Source: a virus. From it: a stretch of 43,262 nt of DNA. The position numbers were made by a program, and so were the translations under genes. Every line of letters begins with the position of its first letter. Within the stretch, counting starts at the first letter, position 1. The stretch lies in IMG/VR virus record IMGVR_UViG_3300020213_000005, positions 1 through 43,262 of that record, one strand, 5' to 3'. The notes under the pieces are model-generated. The model was not told the DNA's origin, did not search any database, and saw only the letters and a list, made by a program, of their open reading frames with translations. Of this stretch, positions 1,838-38,927 are shown piece after piece.

Positions 1838-3304
1838 TTAGAAATCGTCCTTATTAATTATAGCACCCCGCCTCATTAGAGACGGCTGGTTAGTGTCTTT
1901 GTTGTAAGGATTACGGTCTGAGAGGGTTGAGATCACAGATAGGGTTGGTGAATGTATCGGATTAGACATGATCAGGTAGCGAAGACAATCGATAAAATCA
2001 TCGTGTATCTTCTTCGGTTTCTCGTTAACGCCAGCAGCTTCAGGGTGACGAAAGTTCTGCCAGCTGTAGAGCTCCATATCACTTACGAGGTTAACGCAGT
2101 TATCTAGAATGCGAAGTTGATCCTTCTGAAGCAGGAGCTTAATTTTGTTAAGAGAAGCGTCTACATCCTTTTCGGACTTTCTCATAGGGGAGACGCGCAC
2201 GTTGTAGCCGTTCTCTCTGGTCCACTGGTCAAGCTGGGCTACCATAGAGTTACGGTTCCAGTCGCCGGCGGAGCCGGAGTTATCGATACGGCGGCAGACC
2301 ACCCGGTAGTGTTTATCCTTCTCAAGCTTTCTCATGGCTTCGGCTAGGTCGTTTACGGTACCTGAGATCTTAAGTTCATCGAAGATGACAATTTCGTCCT
2401 CCGGTGTGACACCTCCATAGAGCACGCAGTGATCTTTACGGGGATGTGGGTCTAGGGCTACCCAGACGTTCCACTCCTCCGGCCAGCCTTGTTGTTTGAA
2501 GACATGGCGTGGGCGGCTGAAGTCTTTAAAGACCCGACCTTGTAGCATGGCAAACTCGCCGTAGATACGAACTTTTCGTTCTTCCGGCGTCAGGCGGGAT
2601 TCAAAGTCTTTAACGAAATCAGGTGAGAGGTGAGGGTTTTCGTAGGTGGTCCCGGTCACGATACATATGTTCGGGTCCTTCTTAACGAAGAAGGGAATCC
2701 AGAGCTCCTCGTAAAGCCACGGCTCACTGATGGGAGTCCCTGCTAAGACGACAAAGTAGTCCTTGTTGGCTCGTAAACCTCTGAAGGCTGCGATCCATAA
2801 AGAGCGGGGACACGGCTCGTCTAAGAAGAGCGCGTGTAAGTTAGAGCCCTCAAGCTTGGTCGATTCCTGATCGTGGCTGTAGATGGTCGTGGTCGATCCG
2901 TTAGGCCACTCGAACCGTCTAACATTGGATGTCCCCATCTTATTTAGTTTAGGCATGAAGGATGGAGGACACCAACGGCGAAGTTCCGTCACGTAGTCTT
3001 CAGCCTTGTCGAGACCGGGCACGATAAGCCAAGACGAGCTGACGGACGTGGTGTCGCGGTAGGGGTGTGTTCTGGTGTGGGTCCAGATGAGATCTATGGT
3101 GAGTGCTGTGGTCTTACCGAATCCGTTGCCGGAGAACATGGCCCGTATCCTAGCAGGGCTTTCCAGGAAGGCCCGTTGACCAGCATGGGGTTTGAAAGTC
3201 TCAAGGACTTTCTCCTTCTGAAGCAAAGCTTTTTCCTGTAAAAGTCGGAACAGCTCTTCGCGTTCGGTCCTAGAAAGTTTACTCAGGTCGGTCGGGTTTG
3301 ACAT
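1838..3304 (-). CDS. terL: Terminase large subunit
   Basis: ATPase-nuclease motor that packages DNA into the prohead (488 aa, normal for the family). Visible motifs: Walker A SGNGFGKTT at residues 58-66; Walker B with acidic pair LHALFLDEP around 156-164 (D162, E163); a C-terminal RNase H-like nuclease domain beginning with WVALDPH (D285) and ending with an acidic DDFIDCLRYL segment near residue 440. Start MSNPTDLSK at 3304 overlaps the end of terS by 26 bases, and the portal follows 21 bases downstream. The family assignment is firm. The packaging mode (headful or cohesive ends) cannot be read from the sequence. Confidence 0.95.
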   Translation of the reverse strand: MSNPTDLSKLSRTEREELFRLLQEKALLQKEKVLETFKPHAGQRAFLESPARIRAMFSGNGFGKTTALTIDLIWTHTRTHPYRDTTSVSSSWLIVPGLDKAEDYVTELRRWCPPSFMPKLNKMGTSNVRRFEWPNGSTTTIYSHDQESTKLEGSNLHALFLDEPCPRSLWIAAFRGLRANKDYFVVLAGTPISEPWLYEELWIPFFVKKDPNICIVTGTTYENPHLSPDFVKDFESRLTPEERKVRIYGEFAMLQGRVFKDFSRPRHVFKQQGWPEEWNVWVALDPHPRKDHCVLYGGVTPEDEIVIFDELKISGTVNDLAEAMRKLEKDKHYRVVCRRIDNSGSAGDWNRNSMVAQLDQWTRENGYNVRVSPMRKSEKDVDASLNKIKLLLQKDQLRILDNCVNLVSDMELYSWQNFRHPEAAGVNEKPKKIHDDFIDCLRYLIMSNPIHSPTLSVISTLSDRNPYNKDTNQPSLMRRGAIINKDDF

Positions 3305-3749
3305 CTATGACCTCATCAAACAGTTTAGACTTGCGGGGCTTTCTGGCTTTCTTTACGGCTACGGCTTTAACAATAAGGGCTTCGTTCACCAGTGCAGACG
3401 CACCGGATCTGGACATGAGCTGAAGGATCTGTCCGTCGAGATCCTTGTCGGCGAGACGGTTAGCGTCAGCGAAGATCGAGACGGAACGCTCGACCGGCTT
3501 GCCGCCGGTCCTGTTTAAAATCTCAATAGCAGCTTTAAGTTTGACATCATCCTTCTCGCTGTTCATGGCCTCCGCAAGCGTAAGGGCTGCGATGGTCTCA
3601 CTCTTCTTTAAAATCTGTTCAGCCCCACCGTGCGCGAGAGCACAGGCTTTAATGGCCGGCATCAACTGATCATAGAGACGGAGGTTATCCATCGTACGGA
3701 CCATGCGGCTCTCAGTTCCGTTATGAAACGGTCTGGGTTTTCTAGGCAT
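3279..3749 (-). CDS. terS: Terminase small subunit
   Basis: DNA-recognition subunit of the packaging motor (156 aa). I place the start at the ATG at 3749 rather than further upstream because AAGGAAA lies a suitable distance before it and the upstream gene's stop overlaps the start (ATGCCTAG). It has an N-terminal basic segment, a helical region, then KLKAAIEILNRTGGKPVE, a signature I associate with many phage TerS proteins, and a basic C-terminus. It directly precedes and overlaps terL. The pac or cos site often lies in or beside this gene; none could be identified by eye. Confidence 0.75.
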   Translation of the reverse strand: MPRKPRPFHNGTESRMVRTMDNLRLYDQLMPAIKACALAHGGAEQILKKSETIAALTLAEAMNSEKDDVKLKAAIEILNRTGGKPVERSVSIFADANRLADKDLDGQILQLMSRSGASALVNEALIVKAVAVKKARKPRKSKLFDEVIDVKPDRPE

Positions 3750-3933
3750 CTGAGGTTTCCTTATCAGGGGCGACGAGGACCGATTTGACCGCGAAGCGCT
3801 TATTTCCTTTGAAGGCATCCAAGACCGCGAGATAGGCATCACCGCTTTCAAGTGGGCGGCCGTCTTTCTCTACGAGTTTTATAGTGACCAGGGCTGAAGG
3901 TCTAACGGCAACAGTTGTGTTAAATATACTCAT
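3742..3933 (-). CDS. Small hypothetical protein, first gene of the late operon
   Basis: 63 aa protein of unknown function. Start chosen at the ATG at 3933, preceded by GAAAGAGAG; an in-frame ATG at 3990 has no ribosome site. The stop overlaps the start of terS, so the two are probably translationally coupled. It has no cysteines, membrane segment or recognisable motif. It is the first gene of the packaging/virion operon and sits just downstream of a terminator-like hairpin on the same strand. Confidence 0.7.
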   Translation of the reverse strand: MSIFNTTVAVRPSALVTIKLVEKDGRPLESGDAYLAVLDAFKGNKRFAVKSVLVAPDKETSDA

Positions 3934-4805: not shown

Positions 4806-5000
4806 ATGAACTCAAATAAAGACTTTACACAAAACCCAATCACCGACCAAGGTACTAAAACGATCATGGTTAAGTTTAGAGACAAACTCACAGGAGCGTA
4901 TGTTTACGATAAGAAGGTAACCAGAGCATTCCTTGCGAAGATGTATCATGACAGAGCTGTGACTCACGCTCTTAACGGTGTACCGGTTATTGATATCTAG
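4806..5000 (+). CDS. Small hypothetical protein
   Basis: 64 aa, unknown function. GAGGAGAAATAAC precedes the ATG; the same ribosome-site context recurs before 7845 and 8017. The protein is mixed charged with no membrane segment or cysteine. It is the first plus-strand gene after the sigma-54-type motif at 4706 and precedes the alanine-rich paralogue array. Confidence 0.7.
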   Translation: MNSNKDFTQNPITDQGTKTIMVKFRDKLTGAYVYDKKVTRAFLAKMYHDRAVTHALNGVPVIDI

Positions 5001-5020: not shown

Positions 5021-5051
5021 TTGACTTTATCAATAGTATCTGAGATACTAT
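5021..5051 (+). promoter_or_regulatory. Promoter/operator cassette, copy 1
   Basis: TTGACT, 17-base spacer, GATACT with an upstream TG (extended -10). ATAGTATCTGAGATACTAT at 5033-5051 is a perfect 8-bp inverted repeat around TGA that covers the -10, as expected of an operator. The stretch from -35 through the AAGAGGTG ribosome site is nearly identical in four places, so transcription and translation signals were duplicated together. Confidence 0.7.
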
Positions 5052-5068: not shown

Positions 5069-5416
5069 ATGAATACAACGAATAACACTAAAGAAATAAC
5101 CACTAAAGATAAAGTTTGGATTGCTCTTAATCTTATGCCTAGAGGATTAGTTGAAGCTTTTGCTATGGATTGTGCTTCCAGGGCTGCTTCTTATAACCCT
5201 TCTTTCGGTGTTTACGCTGCTTCTGCCGCTTTATCCACTCAAACCCTTAACTCTAACGAATTGGCTTGTATGGCTGCTTATTATGTAGCTACTTCTACGG
5301 CTGACGCTGCTTTAGCCTCTTTATCGAAATCCTCCTATGCTGACATGATTAATGCTGTAGCTAATGAATATGAATTACAATTGAAGTCTATTGCTCAATT
5401 AAACAAAGGAATTTAA
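5069..5416 (+). CDS. Alanine-rich repeat paralogue A (short form)
   Basis: 115 aa. ATG at 5069 follows AAGAGGTG; a TTG at 5021 in the same frame lies in the -35 box and is rejected. A conserved block (KDKVWIALNLMPRGLVEAF then a Cys-Ser-Arg segment) leads to an Ala/Ser/Tyr-rich middle and a conserved tail LQLKSIAQLNKG. It matches the common phage/bacterial alanine-rich family with an FAxxCxxR motif, sometimes labelled putative immunity protein, as I recall it. It lacks the roughly 42-residue N-terminal domain found in copies C-E. Function unknown; probably helical and cytoplasmic. Confidence 0.75.
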   Translation: MNTTNNTKEITTKDKVWIALNLMPRGLVEAFAMDCASRAASYNPSFGVYAASAALSTQTLNSNELACMAAYYVATSTADAALASLSKSSYADMINAVANEYELQLKSIAQLNKGI

Positions 5417-5424
5417 ATAGCCCC

Positions 5425-5455
5425 TTGACTTTATCAATAGTATCTGAGATACTAT
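5425..5455 (+). promoter_or_regulatory. Promoter/operator cassette, copy 2
   Basis: Same cassette as at 5021: TTGACT-N17-GATACT with the 19-base inverted repeat at 5437-5455 over the -10, and AAGAGGTG following. It begins 9 bases after the stop of paralogue A. Confidence 0.7.
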
Positions 5456-5472
5456 ATATAAGAGGTGAATAT

Positions 5473-5916
5473 ATGAATATGAATATGACGAATAAAACTA
5501 AAGAAATAACCGCTGAAGATAAAGTTTTGATTGCGCTTAAGCTTATGCCTAAAGAATTAGTTGCAGCTTTTGCCCTTGAATGCTCCTCTAGAGCTTCTGC
5601 TTATGCGGCTAAGGTTGCTCTTTTAGCTGCTTCTGCTACTTCTTATACTTCTTATGCTATTCATAAAGCTTCTTATTATGCTCAAGCTGCTCTCTCTGCT
5701 TCTGATAAAGCTTCTTATGATGCTCCCACTGCTGCTCAAGCTGCTTATGATGCTGCTTTTTATGCAGCTAAGGTTGCCGCTTATGCTCAAGCTGCTCTCT
5801 CTGCTTCTGATAAAGCTCCTTATGGTGCTACTTATGATGCAGCAGCTATTGCTTCTATTGAAGAGCAGGATCTACAATTGAAGTCTATTGCTCAATTAAA
5901 CAAAGGAATTAAATAA
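5473..5916 (+). CDS. Alanine-rich repeat paralogue B (short form)
   Basis: 147 aa; ATG at 5473 after AAGAGGTG (ATGs at 5479 and 5485 are alternatives). It starts directly at the KTKEITAEDK block, has LMPKELVAAFALECSSR, then a long Ala/Tyr/Ser middle with an internal duplication (YAQAALSASDKA occurs twice), and ends LQLKSIAQLNKG. Like copy A it lacks the N-terminal domain of C-E. An AAGGA within its last codons serves as ribosome site for copy C, so B and C are coupled. Confidence 0.75.
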   Translation: MNMNMTNKTKEITAEDKVLIALKLMPKELVAAFALECSSRASAYAAKVALLAASATSYTSYAIHKASYYAQAALSASDKASYDAPTAAQAAYDAAFYAAKVAAYAQAALSASDKAPYGATYDAAAIASIEEQDLQLKSIAQLNKGIK

Positions 5917-5917
5917 C

Positions 5918-6397
5918 ATGAAAATCAAAGTAAATAGTGATATTATTAAATCATTAACTCCATGTAAAGATAGACTGGTTAATTATCTTAAACATTACAA
6001 TGAGTTAAACTTTGATATTCTAGAATTCCTGGCTCTGGACAAAATAACCACTGAAGATAAAATCTGGGTATCAGTTAGACTCATGCCTGTAAACTTAGTT
6101 GAAAGGTTTGCCCTTGAATGCTCCTCTAGAGCTTCTGCTTATGCGGCTAAGGCTTATACTTATGCAGCTAAGTCTTCTAATTATTATGATGCTTCTGATG
6201 CCGCTGTCGCTGCTTCTTATGCAGCTAAGGCTACCTCTCTCGCTTCTTATGCTCAAGATGCTCCTGATACTCTCACTGCTGCTAAGGCTGCTTCTTATGC
6301 TGCTTCTTATGCTGCTGACGCTGCTGATCTCGCTTCTGCTGAAGAACAGGATTTACAATTGAAGTCTATTGCTCAATTAATCGAAGAAAGTAAATAA
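5918..6397 (+). CDS. Alanine-rich repeat paralogue C (full form)
   Basis: 159 aa, beginning 1 base after B with no promoter of its own. N-terminal domain (residues 1-42, KIKVNSDIIKSLTPC then a DRLVNYLKHYNEL segment), middle block WVSVRLMPVNLVERFALECSSR, then an Ala-rich region in YAAK/SYAA steps, and tail LQLKSIAQLIEES. Bases 5918-6100 are almost identical to the starts of D and E, showing recent duplication or gene conversion. Function unknown. Confidence 0.75.
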   Translation: MKIKVNSDIIKSLTPCKDRLVNYLKHYNELNFDILEFLALDKITTEDKIWVSVRLMPVNLVERFALECSSRASAYAAKAYTYAAKSSNYYDASDAAVAASYAAKATSLASYAQDAPDTLTAAKAASYAASYAADAADLASAEEQDLQLKSIAQLIEESK

Positions 6398-6398
6398 C

Positions 6399-6908
6399 AT
6401 GAAAATCAAAGTAAATAGTGATATTATTAAATCATTAACTCCATGTGAAGATAGACTGGTTAATTATCTTAAACATTACAATGAGTTAAACTTTGATATT
6501 CTAGAATTCCTGGCTCTGGACAAAATAACCACTGAAGATAAAGTTTGGGTATCAGTTAGACTCATGCCTAAAGAATTAGTTCAAAGGTTTGCTATGGATT
6601 GTGCCTCTAGGGCTTCTACTTATGCGGCTAAGTCTGTTAATGCTACTTATGCTGCTCAAGCTGTTTCTCATGCTTCTTATGCTGCTTCTTATCCTGGTCG
6701 CATTGATCTCTTTGCTTATGACGCTGCTTATTATGCTGATCTCGCTGCTTATGATGCTGCTTATGCTTCTGATCTCGCTGCTTATGATGCTTCTTATGCT
6801 CAAGGTGCTTCTGATACTCTCACTGCTGCTACTGCTGATACTGCTTCTGCTGAAGAACGAGAATTGCAATTGAAGTCTATTGCTCAATTAATTGAAGAAA
6901 GTAAATAG
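6399..6908 (+). CDS. Alanine-rich repeat paralogue D (full form)
   Basis: 169 aa, the longest copy, 1 base after C. Same N-terminal domain as C (one visible change, Cys-Glu for Cys-Lys near residue 18), LMPKELVQRFAMDCASR block as in copy A, then repeats of DLAAYDAAYA type and the LQLKSIAQLIEES tail. The mixture of A-like and C-like blocks suggests shuffling between copies. Opposite-frame Leu- or Ser-rich frames across this gene are by-products of the GCT/TAT/TCT codon repeats. Confidence 0.75.
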   Translation: MKIKVNSDIIKSLTPCEDRLVNYLKHYNELNFDILEFLALDKITTEDKVWVSVRLMPKELVQRFAMDCASRASTYAAKSVNATYAAQAVSHASYAASYPGRIDLFAYDAAYYADLAAYDAAYASDLAAYDASYAQGASDTLTAATADTASAEERELQLKSIAQLIEESK

Positions 6909-6912
6909 CTAC

Positions 6913-6943
6913 TTGACATTATCAATAGTATCTGAGATACTAT
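6913..6943 (+). promoter_or_regulatory. Promoter/operator cassette, copy 3
   Basis: TTGACA (consensus -35), 17-base spacer, GATACT, with the inverted repeat ATAGTATC-TGA-GATACTAT at 6925-6943 and AAGAGGTG before the ATG at 6961. The -35 is stronger than in copies 1 and 2. Confidence 0.7.
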
Positions 6944-6960
6944 ATATAAGAGGTGAATGT

Positions 6961-7440
6961 ATGAAAATCAAAGTAAATAGTGATATTATTAAATCATTAC
7001 TTCCTTGCGAAGATAGACTGGTTAATTATCTTAAACATTACAATGAGTTAAACTTTGATATTCTAGAATTCCTGGCTCTGGACAAAATAACCACTGAAGA
7101 TAAAGTTTGGGTCGCGCTTAAGCTTATGCCTAAAGAATTAGTTGCAGCTTTTGCCCTTGAATGCTCCTCTAGAGCTTCTGCTTATGCGGCTAAGGCTTAT
7201 ACTGCTCTCTCTGTTTCTGATAAAGCTTCTTATGCTGCTAAGGGTGCTCTCTCAGCCGCTTATGATGCTCCTCTCACTGCTTCTTATTATGCAGCTGTCG
7301 CTGCTTCTTATGCTGCTTCTTATGCTGCTGACGCTGCTTATCTCGCTGCTTCTTATGCTACTAACGCTGATCGCGCTTATGCTGAAGAACGAGAATTGCA
7401 ATTGAAGTCTATTGCTCAATTAATTGAAGAAAGTAAATAG
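6961..7440 (+). CDS. Alanine-rich repeat paralogue E (full form)
   Basis: 159 aa; ATG at 6961 after AGAGGTGAATGT, not the upstream in-frame start that would read through the promoter. It has the N-terminal domain of C/D, the LMPKELVAAFALECSSR block of copy B, an Ala/Tyr/Ser middle and the LQLKSIAQLIEES tail. It therefore combines a C/D head with a B-like centre. Last member of the array. Confidence 0.75.
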   Translation: MKIKVNSDIIKSLLPCEDRLVNYLKHYNELNFDILEFLALDKITTEDKVWVALKLMPKELVAAFALECSSRASAYAAKAYTALSVSDKASYAAKGALSAAYDAPLTASYYAAVAASYAASYAADAAYLAASYATNADRAYAEERELQLKSIAQLIEESK

Positions 7441-7444
7441 CTAC

Positions 7445-7475
7445 TTGACATTATCAATAGTATCTGAGATACTAT
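7445..7475 (+). promoter_or_regulatory. Promoter/operator cassette, copy 4
   Basis: TTGACA-N17-GATACT with the same 19-base inverted repeat at 7457-7475 and AGAGGTG. Here it drives a different gene, a small membrane protein, showing that the cassette rather than the coding sequence is the mobile or duplicated unit. Confidence 0.7.
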
Positions 7476-7494
7476 ATATAAGAGGTGAATGTAT

Positions 7495-7635
7495 ATGATT
7501 ATCTTGATTTTAATAGCATTAGCAATATTGTTCTTTTACGGACCGGTAGCTTTAATAAAAGCAATCATACTGGTATTTGCGGTAATAGGTTTTTTCTACT
7601 CATTGGGGGTGATTTATGAAAACAAACAACGATAA
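7495..7635 (+). CDS. Small hydrophobic membrane protein
   Basis: 46 aa. ATG at 7495 is 7 bases after AGAGGTG; an in-frame ATG at 7489 is too close to the ribosome site. The sequence is almost wholly hydrophobic with two probable membrane helices (residues 2-15 and 23-40) separated by YGPVALIK, and a short charged end YENKQR. It overlaps the next gene by 20 bases. Two-helix phage proteins of this size include holins, antiholins and exclusion proteins; nothing here decides between them. Confidence 0.6.
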   Translation: MIILILIALAILFFYGPVALIKAIILVFAVIGFFYSLGVIYENKQR

Positions 7636-7843
7636 AACAATCATGGTTTTAATACCAAAACGTGACATGTTTAGTCAATTGAAACTAGTGATGCCTGAAG
7701 AGATCGAAAAGGCTGAAGCTCTCGATCTCTGGTTTATTGATGCTAAGCACAGACTAGCTCAATGCAAGCTCGGCATTGCTAACCTAGAGCGTCTTAACAA
7801 CGAATTTTATAATAATTTAGAAAAGCTTTTTGAGGAGAAATAA
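7616..7843 (+). CDS. Hypothetical helical protein
   Basis: 75 aa, unknown. GGGGGTG lies upstream of the ATG at 7616. Mostly helical by composition, with a charged C-terminal half (LERLNNEFYNNLEKLFEEK) that could form a coiled coil. Its last codons carry the GAGGAG ribosome site of the next gene. Confidence 0.65.
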   Translation: MKTNNDKTIMVLIPKRDMFSQLKLVMPEEIEKAEALDLWFIDAKHRLAQCKLGIANLERLNNEFYNNLEKLFEEK

Positions 7844-7844
7844 C

Positions 7845-8015
7845 ATGAATATCACGACAATAACTGAAGATATGGAATTTGTTATTTACGTAGAGCGAAT
7901 TAAAGCTCTCATTCAATCTACTCAGGATGAGCCAAGTTTGAGAGTGATCTCAAATAAATTTAACTGGGTAGATGATGCATGTAAAACTAGAGAGCTGAAG
8001 ATAAGGGAGAAATAA
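7845..8015 (+). CDS. Small hypothetical protein
   Basis: 56 aa; ATG at 7845 after GAGGAGAAATAAC, preferred over a further-upstream non-ATG start. Acidic and helical, no motif recognised. Its terminal codons provide the AGGGAG site of the gene at 8017. Confidence 0.65.
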   Translation: MNITTITEDMEFVIYVERIKALIQSTQDEPSLRVISNKFNWVDDACKTRELKIREK

Positions 8016-8460: not shown

Positions 8461-8586
8461 ATGATTACTAGATTAACAATATTAACTCTCTTATTGACAG
8501 GATGTGGTGATTCAGATATTAACTGCACATTGATTGTGAATAAGAATAACGAAAAATGTGTTACTTATAAAGGAGATTTAGAATGA
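8461..8586 (+). CDS. Small lipoprotein
   Basis: 41 aa. Signal peptide ending in lipobox LLTGC, so Cys15 should be lipidated after cleavage; the mature part is only 27 residues with two further cysteines (NCTLIV, KCVTY) that could form a disulfide. The stop overlaps the next start (ATGA). Ribosome site before the ATG is weak. Phage-encoded small lipoproteins commonly act in superinfection exclusion, which is a possibility only. Confidence 0.6.
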   Translation: MITRLTILTLLLTGCGDSDINCTLIVNKNNEKCVTYKGDLE

Positions 8587-8858
8587 AACGAGAACGACGG
8601 ACTTTTACAAAACAATTTAAACAAGAAACTATTAAAACCATCCAGGATAAGCATAAGACTATGAACCAGGTATCTAGAGAGCAAAACATATCACTCCCAT
8701 TACTTAAGCGATGGTTGAACGATGAGATAGCCTCCAATCGCTACTTAGATTATATGGGAGCTAGCTCTTCACCTATTGAGCGAAGAAAGGATTATAAACA
8801 AATGCAGGAGCTCAAGCTCAGACTTGCTGAAATTATGTTCGAAATAGAGAGGATTTAA
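8583..8858 (+). CDS. IS3/IS911 OrfA-like helix-turn-helix protein
   Basis: 91 aa. N-terminal RRTFTKQFKQETIKTI, then a helix-turn-helix (NQVSREQNISLPLLKRWL) and a C-terminal heptad-like ELKLRLAEIMFEIERI, in the order of HTH_Tnp_1 transposase OrfA proteins. No OrfB, DDE domain or terminal inverted repeats are nearby, so it is not a complete insertion sequence. It is probably a domesticated DNA-binding protein, possibly an early regulator. AAAGGAG precedes the ATG, which overlaps the upstream lipoprotein gene. Confidence 0.75.
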   Translation: MKRERRTFTKQFKQETIKTIQDKHKTMNQVSREQNISLPLLKRWLNDEIASNRYLDYMGASSSPIERRKDYKQMQELKLRLAEIMFEIERI

Positions 8859-8860
8859 CT

Positions 8861-9067
8861 ATGCTTGTATATATAACATTCAAGGATAAATGGATAATGC
8901 CGGTTTATTTAGACCAAGATAACGAGAAACTGATTACTTATCTCCACTCAAGATTTAAGGATATTGATTCAATTAACTTCTATCATCTAGATCAGCATGA
9001 CTTCACTCATTTAGCGAACATGTTTCTTTCGTATAATACAAGAGAGCGGCAGATTGCCCCGGATTAG
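8861..9067 (+). CDS. Small hypothetical protein
   Basis: 68 aa, beginning 2 bases after the OrfA-like gene with AGAGAGGA upstream. Beta-strand start (MLVYITFKDKWIMPVYL) then charged helices; no motif recognised. Its last 65 bases overlap, tail to tail, the end of the primase-helicase gene on the other strand. Confidence 0.6.
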   Translation: MLVYITFKDKWIMPVYLDQDNEKLITYLHSRFKDIDSINFYHLDQHDFTHLANMFLSYNTRERQIAPD

Positions 9068-10595
9068 CTCCAGGGTATCGAGCCGCCTCAAGTTTAACAC
9101 GAAGTTCATTTTCGTTATCTTTAGAGCGCTCTAGAATAAAGAAGTTATCAGCATTCATACCCCAAGCAAGTCCTCCGTACGAGGTCTGAATAGATAACCC
9201 ATCTTTTGTTTTAGGTGCTTGGACAACAACGGGGATATGAAGATTAAGAGTATTAGTTAACTTCTTGATATTCTTAGCTAATACTTGGTTCTCTTCAGCA
9301 TCTGTCATCTTTTCTGTCATGAATCCTGCGTGATCTAAGATTAGGTACTCAATACCGTGAGCTCTCTTCATTTCGGTTGCCCACTCCTCAATTTCATGCC
9401 ACGGGGTATAACCGAATCTTCGTAGTATAAAAATATTGTCAAGATAAGGGGATTCTTCGTGAATCCCTCTCACTAAGTCATTGAGATCATTAGCATCTTC
9501 CACTGATCTTATATTAATCTGTCCGGCTATGCTTAATAGGGATGGGAAGATTGATGTGGCAGGATCAGCTTCAAAACTAGCCAGCGCAATCTTCTTGCCG
9601 CTCTTCGCCAAATTGTGTATAAGGTTTTGGATGAACGAGGTTTTACCTGTTTTGGCAAAAGCGTTGATAACTGACATTTCGTTGGGTCTGAGACCTCCAC
9701 CGAGAAGATGATCAACGGAGAGCCATCCCGTGGAATCCCCAACAAGGTTTCGCTGGTCGGAGAGGAAAGAGACCATGTCTCCAATAACTCCTGATAATGT
9801 CTTTGTATCCTTTTCAAGCTCCGTTCGTGTTTGTACTCTAATAAACTCACGACATTCTTCATAACCTCTCCTTGTCAGTAAATCGTTCAGATCCTTTATA
9901 TCATCATGAGGCAGGCTTATAATAACAGCTTTTAAGGGGCCTAATAGCTCCGCTATTGAATTCTTTAACTCTTCGCCACCTAAGTCCTTATCCGGTATCA
10001 CAAAGACGTTCTTAAAGGCTTTTACGTGTTTTGATGCTGATAGTGATAGTCGGTTGGTTTGTGTGGCTAGTATAGTACCCCTAAAACCGGCTACCGCGCC
10101 GGTCAAGGCATCAATCTCACCCTCGACGATAAGAAGTTTGTCGTCGTCCCCTTTGATCCAGAACCCTTCGTTGACAGATCCAGGCTCACTAAGATAGCGG
10201 GGTGACTCACTACCAGTCCTCCGGTACTTAATTCCTACGACTTCTTGGTTAAAATTGGCGGTAACGATGGCAATAGCTTGGTGCTCTGGACTATAGGCAA
10301 TGGGAAGATCAGCGGCCCCGTTAAGACGAGCATCTAAGAAATCCTTTAGTTGAGGACTGTCAGACTTAAGTTTAGATAGGGAGGATTGGTTGAATTCCTT
10401 CTTAGCAATCTCGTCAATCACTTCTAACTCCTCTAAAAACCGTTCTGACAGATCCTTCCCGCTGATTTGACAGTGGTGACAGAAGTAGAGACCGGTCTCG
10501 CTGTTGATGTAGAACTTGCCGTCGGTCCTCCCGTTCTGGGTTAAACTACCGCAGAAGGGACATAGAGCCCGTAACTCCGTTGCCCTTGCGCTCAC
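9003..10595 (-). CDS. T7 gp4-type primase-helicase
   Basis: 530 aa replicative primase-helicase. A Cys4 zinc ribbon (C12, C15, C39, C42) recognises primase sites; a TOPRIM domain follows (VEGEID 157-162, IPDKD 200-204); then a DnaB-like RecA-fold helicase with Walker A AFAKTGKTS (312-320) and Walker B YLILDHAG (D421). It uses GTG as start: a stop codon lies immediately upstream, and the GTG overlaps the stop of the small gene at 10592-10750, implying coupling. It is the only replication gene on the minus strand. Walker and zinc motifs all look intact, so it should prime and unwind. Confidence 0.93.
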   Translation of the reverse strand: MSARATELRALCPFCGSLTQNGRTDGKFYINSETGLYFCHHCQISGKDLSERFLEELEVIDEIAKKEFNQSSLSKLKSDSPQLKDFLDARLNGAADLPIAYSPEHQAIAIVTANFNQEVVGIKYRRTGSESPRYLSEPGSVNEGFWIKGDDDKLLIVEGEIDALTGAVAGFRGTILATQTNRLSLSASKHVKAFKNVFVIPDKDLGGEELKNSIAELLGPLKAVIISLPHDDIKDLNDLLTRRGYEECREFIRVQTRTELEKDTKTLSGVIGDMVSFLSDQRNLVGDSTGWLSVDHLLGGGLRPNEMSVINAFAKTGKTSFIQNLIHNLAKSGKKIALASFEADPATSIFPSLLSIAGQINIRSVEDANDLNDLVRGIHEESPYLDNIFILRRFGYTPWHEIEEWATEMKRAHGIEYLILDHAGFMTEKMTDAEENQVLAKNIKKLTNTLNLHIPVVVQAPKTKDGLSIQTSYGGLAWGMNADNFFILERSKDNENELRVKLEAARYPGANPGQSAALLYYTKETCSLNE

Positions 10596-37496: not shown

Positions 37497-38927
37497 TTAA
37501 CTGATTCTCACTGCTAAAATACCGCCAGATACTTTGGGCGTCGCGACTGTGTAGGTAGCTTTGGTTTTGGCGTAGTAGGTTGTAGTGCTTGCGACAATAA
37601 CTACAATCATTATTGTTACAGATCTATAAAGACCGGTTCCGTTAGTAACCGACGTTCCCATTTGATTAGTACCTAGGACGTGATCCGTAGTTGTATTACC
37701 GGAGTTAGTAGAAATAGCTAATTCAAAATTCGATGGGCTAACTGTGGCTGTAAGTGGATCTATAACGGCTTGTGCTGTAACTAAATAACGACCTGGGGTA
37801 AGAGAAATTGAGACAAGATTTCCATATTGTGCTGATGTTCCTATGTCTTGAGTGGTTACATAGGAAGACAAGGATTGACCGATACGACCGACCGCAACGG
37901 CGGATGTAGAAGTCTGTCCTACTATTCCGTTCGTCAGAGTTAGAGGCCCTGTTATTAAAGCAGCTGATGTGGATGTTATATTTACAGAATAATTGCCAGT
38001 AAAGGCAGTATTATCAGCCAACAGGGCGTTATTCGTACCTTGTGTTGGAATACTTCCACCAAAAGCTAGATCTCTTGTAATGGTGCTCCCAGCGCCTTTA
38101 GCTTGATCTGCAGATTGAAAGTGTGTTCTAAGTGCAGTGGTAAATGCAACAGCTTCAGTGCTTACCGCAGAACTAAATCCTACTATTTCTGTGGTGGCAG
38201 CAGAAGTTCCAACCATACTTGTTCTAGAAGCTCTTTGAGTAACCCCACTTAAAGGATTTTGTACAGCTGTTGGGCTGTTGTTTAAAATGCTTGAGGTTGA
38301 TATTGCTGATCCACCTAACGCTAATCTACCTACTAGAGCTAGACCTGAACCTGACAATGTAGCAGCTAAAACGCCAGCGGTAGTAATTCCGATGGTTCCA
38401 GACGAAATTCGATAAATGCCTGAAGTAGGATCATTTTGAAAACCAAAGCTTGGCGATGATACAGTGCCGTTAGGTCCTTGAAATACGGATAAACCTATAA
38501 CACCTGCTGAGCTTATATTAAGTCGTTGGATCCCTCCGGTTGAGACACCTATAGTATCAGCGGCGGCATTATAAATACCGGTATCTGGATCATTTTGAAA
38601 ATTAAGTCCTGGTGATGCTGCTGTACCGTCTTGAATTTGAAGACGGACGCGAGCGATTGCGGTAGATGAAAAATTAAATACTTGAATACCACCCGCCGCG
38701 ATATCGATAGCATTACTGGCGGACGAGTAAAGACCGGTTGTTAGACCGCCTAGTTTAAGACTTGGCGATGCTACGGTACCTGAGCCTAGGATCAGAGATG
38801 ATAAAGACCCAACAGACCCAATAAAAAGGCCTGACGAGTTAAATAAAACAGTTTCAGAGCCATCAGCACCTATAGCAAACAGTTTATCAAAAGCTAATTT
38901 TGCAAAATGTGTATATTCGGTAGACAT
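37497..38927 (-). CDS. Tail fibre/spike with head-binding repeats
   Basis: 476 aa. Residues about 50-190 hold three copies of a 45-50 residue repeat of form GTxxSPxLxFxNDPxTGIYxxxxxTIGIxTxGxxxxxI, known from phage tail fibre shafts. The C-terminal half is strand-rich and may be the receptor-binding part. No chaperone-type autoprotease motif was seen. Located between small virion genes and the adaptor. Confidence 0.72.
   Translation of the reverse strand: MSTEYTHFAKLAFDKLFAIGADGSETVLFNSSGLFIGSVGSLSSLILGSGTVASPSLKLGGLTTGLYSSASNAIDIAAGGIQVFNFSSTAIARVRLQIQDGTAASPGLNFQNDPDTGIYNAAADTIGVSTGGIQRLNISSAGVIGLSVFQGPNGTVSSPSFGFQNDPTSGIYRISSGTIGITTAGVLAATLSGSGLALVGRLALGGSAISTSSILNNSPTAVQNPLSGVTQRASRTSMVGTSAATTEIVGFSSAVSTEAVAFTTALRTHFQSADQAKGAGSTITRDLAFGGSIPTQGTNNALLADNTAFTGNYSVNITSTSAALITGPLTLTNGIVGQTSTSAVAVGRIGQSLSSYVTTQDIGTSAQYGNLVSISLTPGRYLVTAQAVIDPLTATVSPSNFELAISTNSGNTTTDHVLGTNQMGTSVTNGTGLYRSVTIMIVVIVASTTTYYAKTKATYTVATPKVSGGILAVRIS

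Follow-up and report, generated by a model that had tools for sequence, protein, structure and literature searches.

Five tandem alanine-rich paralogues with constant ends and variable centres in an uncultured tailed phage, remotely related to putative immunity proteins

Polyimmunity loci consist of tandem paralogues in a single orientation, with no toxin genes between them (PMC3482391). Imm5, a mostly alpha immunity protein found beside DYW deaminase and CdiAC toxins, is absent from the prominent homogeneous loci named in the same study (PMC3482391). Phages also form tandem arrays: in T4, recombination under defence pressure amplifies tifA in tandem (PMC9391042), and SegB-driven amplification is established (PMC13096335). 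Our literature search found no paper on Imm-5-like phage proteins or on alanine-rich hypervariable phage genes.

The window analysed here, the whole of a 43,262-base stretch of DNA, is an uncultured tailed-phage record from IMG/VR. Its terminase genes (about 1838–3851) lie on the minus strand, as do the structural and lysis genes past ~27800. Between them, from ~4800 to 27800, runs a long and mostly plus-strand block that encodes an exonuclease, a DNA polymerase, a RuvC-like resolvase, a thymidylate kinase and, on the minus strand within the block, a primase-helicase (9003–10595). At the head of this rightward, early-type block, within 5069–7440, stand five intact paralogous open reading frames, all on the plus strand:

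4806–5000, plus strand: 64-aa ORF, just before the array
5069–5416, plus strand: copy A, 115 aa, short N-terminus; variable centre 5183–5374
5473–5916, plus strand: copy B, 147 aa, short N-terminus; centre 5593–5871
5918–6397, plus strand: copy C, 159 aa, long N-terminus; centre 6131–6352
6399–6908, plus strand: copy D, 169 aa, long N-terminus; centre 6612–6863
6961–7440, plus strand: copy E, 159 aa, long N-terminus; centre 7174–7395

The copies are separated by gaps of 1–56 nt, with no toxin gene or any other gene in between, so that the array is arranged like the homogeneous polyimmunity loci described by Zhang et al. 2012 (PMC3482391), which are likewise toxin-free runs of tandem, diverged paralogues in one orientation with short gaps. 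It differs from them in being phage-borne and in that its assignment to an immunity family is by remote homology alone. With copy E as query, A–D are retrieved at E values of 1e-17 to 1e-55, which, together with the intact frames, bears out the earlier note's recognition of five real tandem paralogues. Further into the block, a 91-aa ORF (8583–8858) weakly resembles a transposase family (phrog_151, E 0.003). Among the window proteins that were scanned, none gave a match to a reverse transcriptase, which a diversity-generating retroelement would have alongside a template repeat with adenine-specific change.

Two blocks are common to all five copies: an IT-x-x-DK...FAxxCxSR block and, at the other end, an LQLKSIAQL tail that is identical in each. 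The longer N-terminal block of ~40 residues (PCxDRLVNYLKHYNELNFDILEFLALDK) is found in C, D and E only; A and B begin just upstream of the IT-x-x-DK block. The claim that every copy shares an N-terminal block, a FAxxCxSR block and the tail thus holds for the latter two and has to be narrowed to three copies for the long N-terminal block. Identity in the end blocks reaches 26/29 and 14/14 residues per copy pair, and whole-protein identity among copies is 42–76%.

Expression signals recur along the array. Four near-identical sigma70-type promoter cassettes, of the form TTGAC[AT]-17-GATACT, precede A, B, E and the ORF that follows E, and shuffled sequence yields none:

5021–5049, plus strand: promoter before A, TTGACT-17-GATACT, with TG before the second hexamer and a near-palindrome at 5035–5049
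5425–5453, plus strand: promoter before B, the same cassette, within a 65-nt exact repeat of that before A
6913–6941, plus strand: promoter before E, TTGACA-17-GATACT, with the same near-palindrome
7445–7473, plus strand: fourth cassette, past E and before a small ORF at 7495–7635

C and D have no promoter of their own; the ATG of each lies 1 nt past the stop codon of the preceding copy (B and C, respectively), which makes translational coupling possible. With frames and starts intact throughout and promoters before A, B and E, all five copies look expressible, and their position and promoter type suggest early expression by the host RNA polymerase. The fourth cassette may be what remains of a sixth copy since lost; in a second contig, G001, a cassette with this fourth sequence is followed by another array copy. 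A near-palindrome, AGTATCTGAGATACT, lies over the second hexamer in all four cassettes of the window (5035–5049, 5439–5453, 6927–6941 and 7459–7473) and could be an operator. It was dropped as a candidate conserved operator because two G001 promoters carry a different sequence in its place.

G001 holds an array of its own, in the order A copy, 64-aa ORF, B/C fusion, E/C/D mosaic and the start of a further copy. Its A copy is 96% identical to that of the window at the protein level and its D copy 98% identical in DNA and 99% in protein, in both cases with the centre included. The fusion copy begins like B and continues as C, whereas the D-type copy is a mosaic whose start comes from E, the next stretch from C and the remainder from D; the last copy has a C-type beginning and is interrupted by the contig end. 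These forms show fusion and gene conversion between copies and displacement of A. The G001 homologue of the 64-aa ORF (84% identical) follows the A copy and precedes the B/C fusion instead of standing just before the array, so that A has moved relative to it. Matching A and D copies with different junctions on a second contig also bear on whether the repeats are an artefact of metagenomic assembly in a repeat-rich region. The longest exact repeat inside the array, at 115 nt, is shorter than common read lengths, which makes a pure artefact unlikely and leaves five as the copy number as assembled; overall, we find this explanation scarcely credible.

The G001 mosaics are also what would be expected had one expressed copy been rewritten by gene conversion from the others. 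Such a silent-cassette store would consist of one expressed copy with donors that have no promoter or start, and the array does not have this form: frames and starts are intact in all copies, promoters stand before A, B and E, and no single expression site is evident. We judge such a store highly improbable, and the earlier suggestion of a 'diversity store', taken in the sense of silent cassettes, is not supported.

Three contigs (G001, G002 and G003) share array copies with the window at 90–98% DNA identity over at least 200 nt, including a G002 copy that is 94% identical to window D over 396 nt. Beyond the array they share little: one to three small genes and, in G001 and G002 only, tail-fibre-like segments (87–94% DNA identity over 51–330 nt). 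The terminases of G001 and G002 are 22–29% identical to that of the window over short stretches, a remote kinship. Near-identical copies in otherwise unrelated genomes indicate that the array travels between phages, and the phages that exchange it probably infect the same host, to judge from these sequences. A first genome search for a bacterial host gave no match, and a second gave one Hydrogenedentota MAG contig, which is insufficient to name the host. Copy number varies among relatives as well. G006 has two copies; elsewhere among the records searched there is one at most, and a single copy is the usual state, as the earlier note had it. Since copy number and content both vary, relatives that all carry the same invariant copies, the outcome that would have spoken against that note, were not what we found. 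Separately, a tail-fibre-like protein is encoded on the minus strand of the window at 37500–38927, and its segment 37995–38323 is 87–90% identical in DNA to both ends of contig G002, ends that share 652 nt with each other at 96%. The corresponding loci are L045:1–921, L046:2–1486 and L047:3486–5525, and one G002 protein has a K1-lyase C-terminal domain at its end. Such shared segments suggest that phages infecting one host exchange modules.

Tandem copies of a small phage gene produced through recombination are what the array has in common with T4 tifA. The copies might accordingly have been selected as a gene-dosage accordion, for more of one inhibitor, and then have drifted. The tifA and SegB precedents (PMC9391042; PMC13096335) and the dosage added by repeated promoters speak for this. 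However, tifA copies are recent amplifications whereas the array copies are diverged and exchanged between phages; near-identical tandem copies are not seen, identity being 42–76% with rearranged centres. That the copies of one array are strongly diverged while D is 98% identical across phages implies that distinct versions are maintained, and we regard selection for dosage as unlikely.

The centres that distinguish these versions are of Ala/Tyr/Ser type, 64–93 residues long and differently ordered between paralogues, with 23–46 identities per pair. Similarity among the centres of B, C, D and E exceeds that of composition-matched shuffles (z 4.7–6.9); by the same measure the centre of A is near noise against the others (z 0.1–3.0). 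Exact pieces of at least 21 nt recur in the centres, often at different offsets but always in frame, and within the centre of B a 37-nt stretch is duplicated exactly (at 5676 and 5781). The modules consist mostly of NNT codons (GCT, TAT, TCT, GAT). GCT accounts for 127 of the 142 alanine codons in the centres; other genes of this phage use it for 182 of 415. The description of the centres as hypervariable stands between paralogues but does not extend to the A and D orthologues in G001, whose centres are near-unchanged; rapid diversification is not seen in every comparison.

Residues other than Ala, Ser and Gly recur with a period of 3.5–3.6 residues, as expected of one face of an alpha-helix, and not with a period of 4.0 and only weakly with 3.0 (z about 12 across 25 family members, which are mutually related, so that this is not a strict probability). 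An AlphaFold model of copy E, from 19 sequences, is a bundle of five helices (residues 45–55, 58–78, 82–101, 106–129 and 136–158) with pLDDT 88, the highest in a range of 67 to 88 across five models, and pTM 0.84. Structure prediction had been suggested beforehand as a check; run on E and on copy A, which has the most different centre and a short N-terminus, it returned the same five-helix order (pLDDT 88 and 73, respectively). On these models and the periodicity, the centres look helical. A fold search of the PDB gave no match at E<0.001, and searching solved structures by sequence found none for the window copies.

Change confined to the centre is most strongly supported by three Salmonella phages, 9NA, Solent and Sergei, in which a single-copy relative lies divergent to the gene for the terminase large subunit, as it also does in PDP46. 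The flanks of this gene in the three genomes are 99.8–100% identical over 1.2–2.4 kb upstream and 1.2–1.5 kb downstream, where 9NA has a single small gap relative to the other two; within the gene, the first 282 nt and the last 47 nt are the same in all three. After the common N-terminus of 93 residues come 109 residues in 9NA, 90 in Solent and 56 in Sergei, in differing order, written in essentially only GCT, GAT, TAT and CGT codons; the Solent and Sergei centres have a 102-nt piece in common. Two further pairs, PDP46/536P12 and 97.13/367.14, have similar end blocks and different centres. The Sergei assembly is based on paired Illumina reads of 250 bases (PMC8273493). Short-read assembly makes mis-assembly of repeats possible in any one genome, but simple collapse would not reorder units.

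DNA matches between the window and 9NA-like phages fall mostly in GCT-rich repeats and prove nothing alone, and homology was therefore re-tested with the N-terminal block only. This block of the window copies is related to that of the alanine-rich proteins of 9NA-like Salmonella phages and of Vibrio and Shewanella phages (phrog_21347 and phrog_18326), with an hhalign probability of 94.8% (E 5e-8) against the 9NA-type block and an HMM E value of about 1e-5. Copies A–E themselves have no match to phrog_21347 or phrog_18326 at E<1; their relatives L012–L014 and L027 do match these profiles. Like the window copies, the proteins of these two families have a variable alanine-rich centre in NNT codons; unlike them, they occur as one copy per genome, and their centres hold more Ala and less Ser.

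These data fit a neutral account well enough that we consider it quite possible, about as likely as an inhibitor function: the function would reside in the conserved ends, the alanine-rich helices would be a length-tolerant spacer or bundle, and variation and copies would be by-products of repeat churn. In keeping with this, the centres are written almost entirely in NNT codons such as GCT, a 102-nt piece of the Solent centre makes up much of the Sergei centre, and most records have a single copy; selection for the fold alone could keep the helical periodicity. Five diverged and intact copies, repeated promoters and transfer between unrelated genomes exceed what by-products need. Neutral churn accounts for the centres about as well as an inhibitor function does, and less well for five diverged, promoter-bearing, exchanged copies.

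Kinship to genes annotated 'putative immunity protein', as the earlier note supposed, was found through intermediates. Copies A–E have no match to Imm5 or to Imm5_like (PF21805; cut-off 25 bits), nor does any frame of the window record match PF21805, and direct searches of the copies against Pfam, NCBIfam, PHROG and PADLOC gave no convincing match. With tblastn, copy E had no match at E<1e-5 among phages and plasmids, perhaps because of low-complexity masking. By contrast, the relatives L027 and L052 pass the PF21805 cut-off at 38 and 49.5 bits, and L026 also matches PF21805. Alignment of the window N-terminal block to a set that includes L027 and L052 gives an hhalign probability of 99.9% (E 4e-31). 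The aligned region comprises this block plus the first conserved helix; the PF21805 match coincides with the helix but not with the block. In a viral fold library, where E values were weak (0.04 and 0.18), an 'Imm-5-like domain-containing protein' ranks second (probability 0.97, E 0.18). The profile search that had been proposed thus makes the link by profile comparison but not by a direct PF21805 match, and we take the window copies to be distantly related to Imm5_like without belonging to it by the curated profile. The order of elements agrees with that in the linked members of Imm5_like and Imm5 (PF21805/PF14423), namely a PC-DR-N block, an FxxxCA helix, alanine-rich helices and a C-terminal helix. 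In contrast to the linked Imm5_like members, the window copies have no YP-DKRPR-A segment, stand in tandem and adjoin no recognised toxin gene.

The sequence comparisons show with high confidence that the array is a horizontally exchanged accessory locus: tandem duplication makes it expand and contract, and in-frame recombination between short modules diversifies it. It encodes several versions of one Imm5-related protein, predicted to be all-helical, whose end helices are constant and whose helical middle varies. Such a gene family is already known in single copy; the diverged array appears to be a new form of it. As to function, we tentatively favour an early inhibitor family in which the variable helical face sets the target, a possibility that falls short of probable. 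Transcribed early by host RNA polymerase from the head of the rightward block, the array would yield proteins that bind and neutralise host-variable protein targets; candidates are toxins or effectors from abortive-infection, contact-inhibition or comparable systems. The ends would serve as the scaffold that all copies have in common, specificity would come from the Tyr/Asp/Ser/Lys face that the alanine-rich helices expose, and five versions would widen the target range, the array acting as the phage equivalent of a homogeneous polyimmunity locus. A narrower form, which we hold to be rather doubtful, is phage-borne polyimmunity proper: each Imm5-related copy would neutralise a different host toxin, with a recognition face rewritten by in-frame modules, early action and exchange between unrelated phages of the same host. 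Against an inhibitor function stand the failure of the window copies to match Imm5 or Imm5_like, the weak E values in the viral fold library, the lack of a PDB fold match at E<0.001 and the near-unchanged centres of A and D in G001; GCT-rich low-complexity DNA, moreover, would change fast even without selection for diversity. The earlier idea of decoys, here taken as mimics of nucleic acid or of a host target, is in keeping with an early-type position, but we found nothing further for it and deem it very unlikely. The window copies resemble no known protein or structure, and their net charge, –8 to +1, is far from that of nucleic-acid mimics, a reading that we reject.

The pattern matters beyond this phage: the family is widespread, its centre varies amid fixed surroundings and one phage carries five versions; change in the centre only may mark a contact surface under pressure. 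The 9NA-like phages offer a cultured system with natural centre variants in genomes that are near-identical around the gene, making it directly testable whether the variable centre sets specificity.

Other relatives add minor observations. Near the alanine-rich gene of L010 are two proteins of 290–311 aa with many G-[DN]-A-x-V repeats of beta-helix type (7063–7995 and 9115–9984). In Vibrio phage 2.044.O (L033), two annotated 'CRISPR spacers' lie inside the alanine-rich gene (3324–3397); these are probably coding repeats of that gene and a false CRISPR call. The Vibrio phages SUMAE and VPALA (L037 and L038), with records of 71 and 130 kb, have identical 4.29-kb loci in which the alanine-rich domain forms the C-terminal end of a 606-aa protein. 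Finally, the family extends to an archaeal virus, Methanosarcina virus MetMV (L042, 2474–3145), whose member has an alanine-rich centre that contains tandem repeats.
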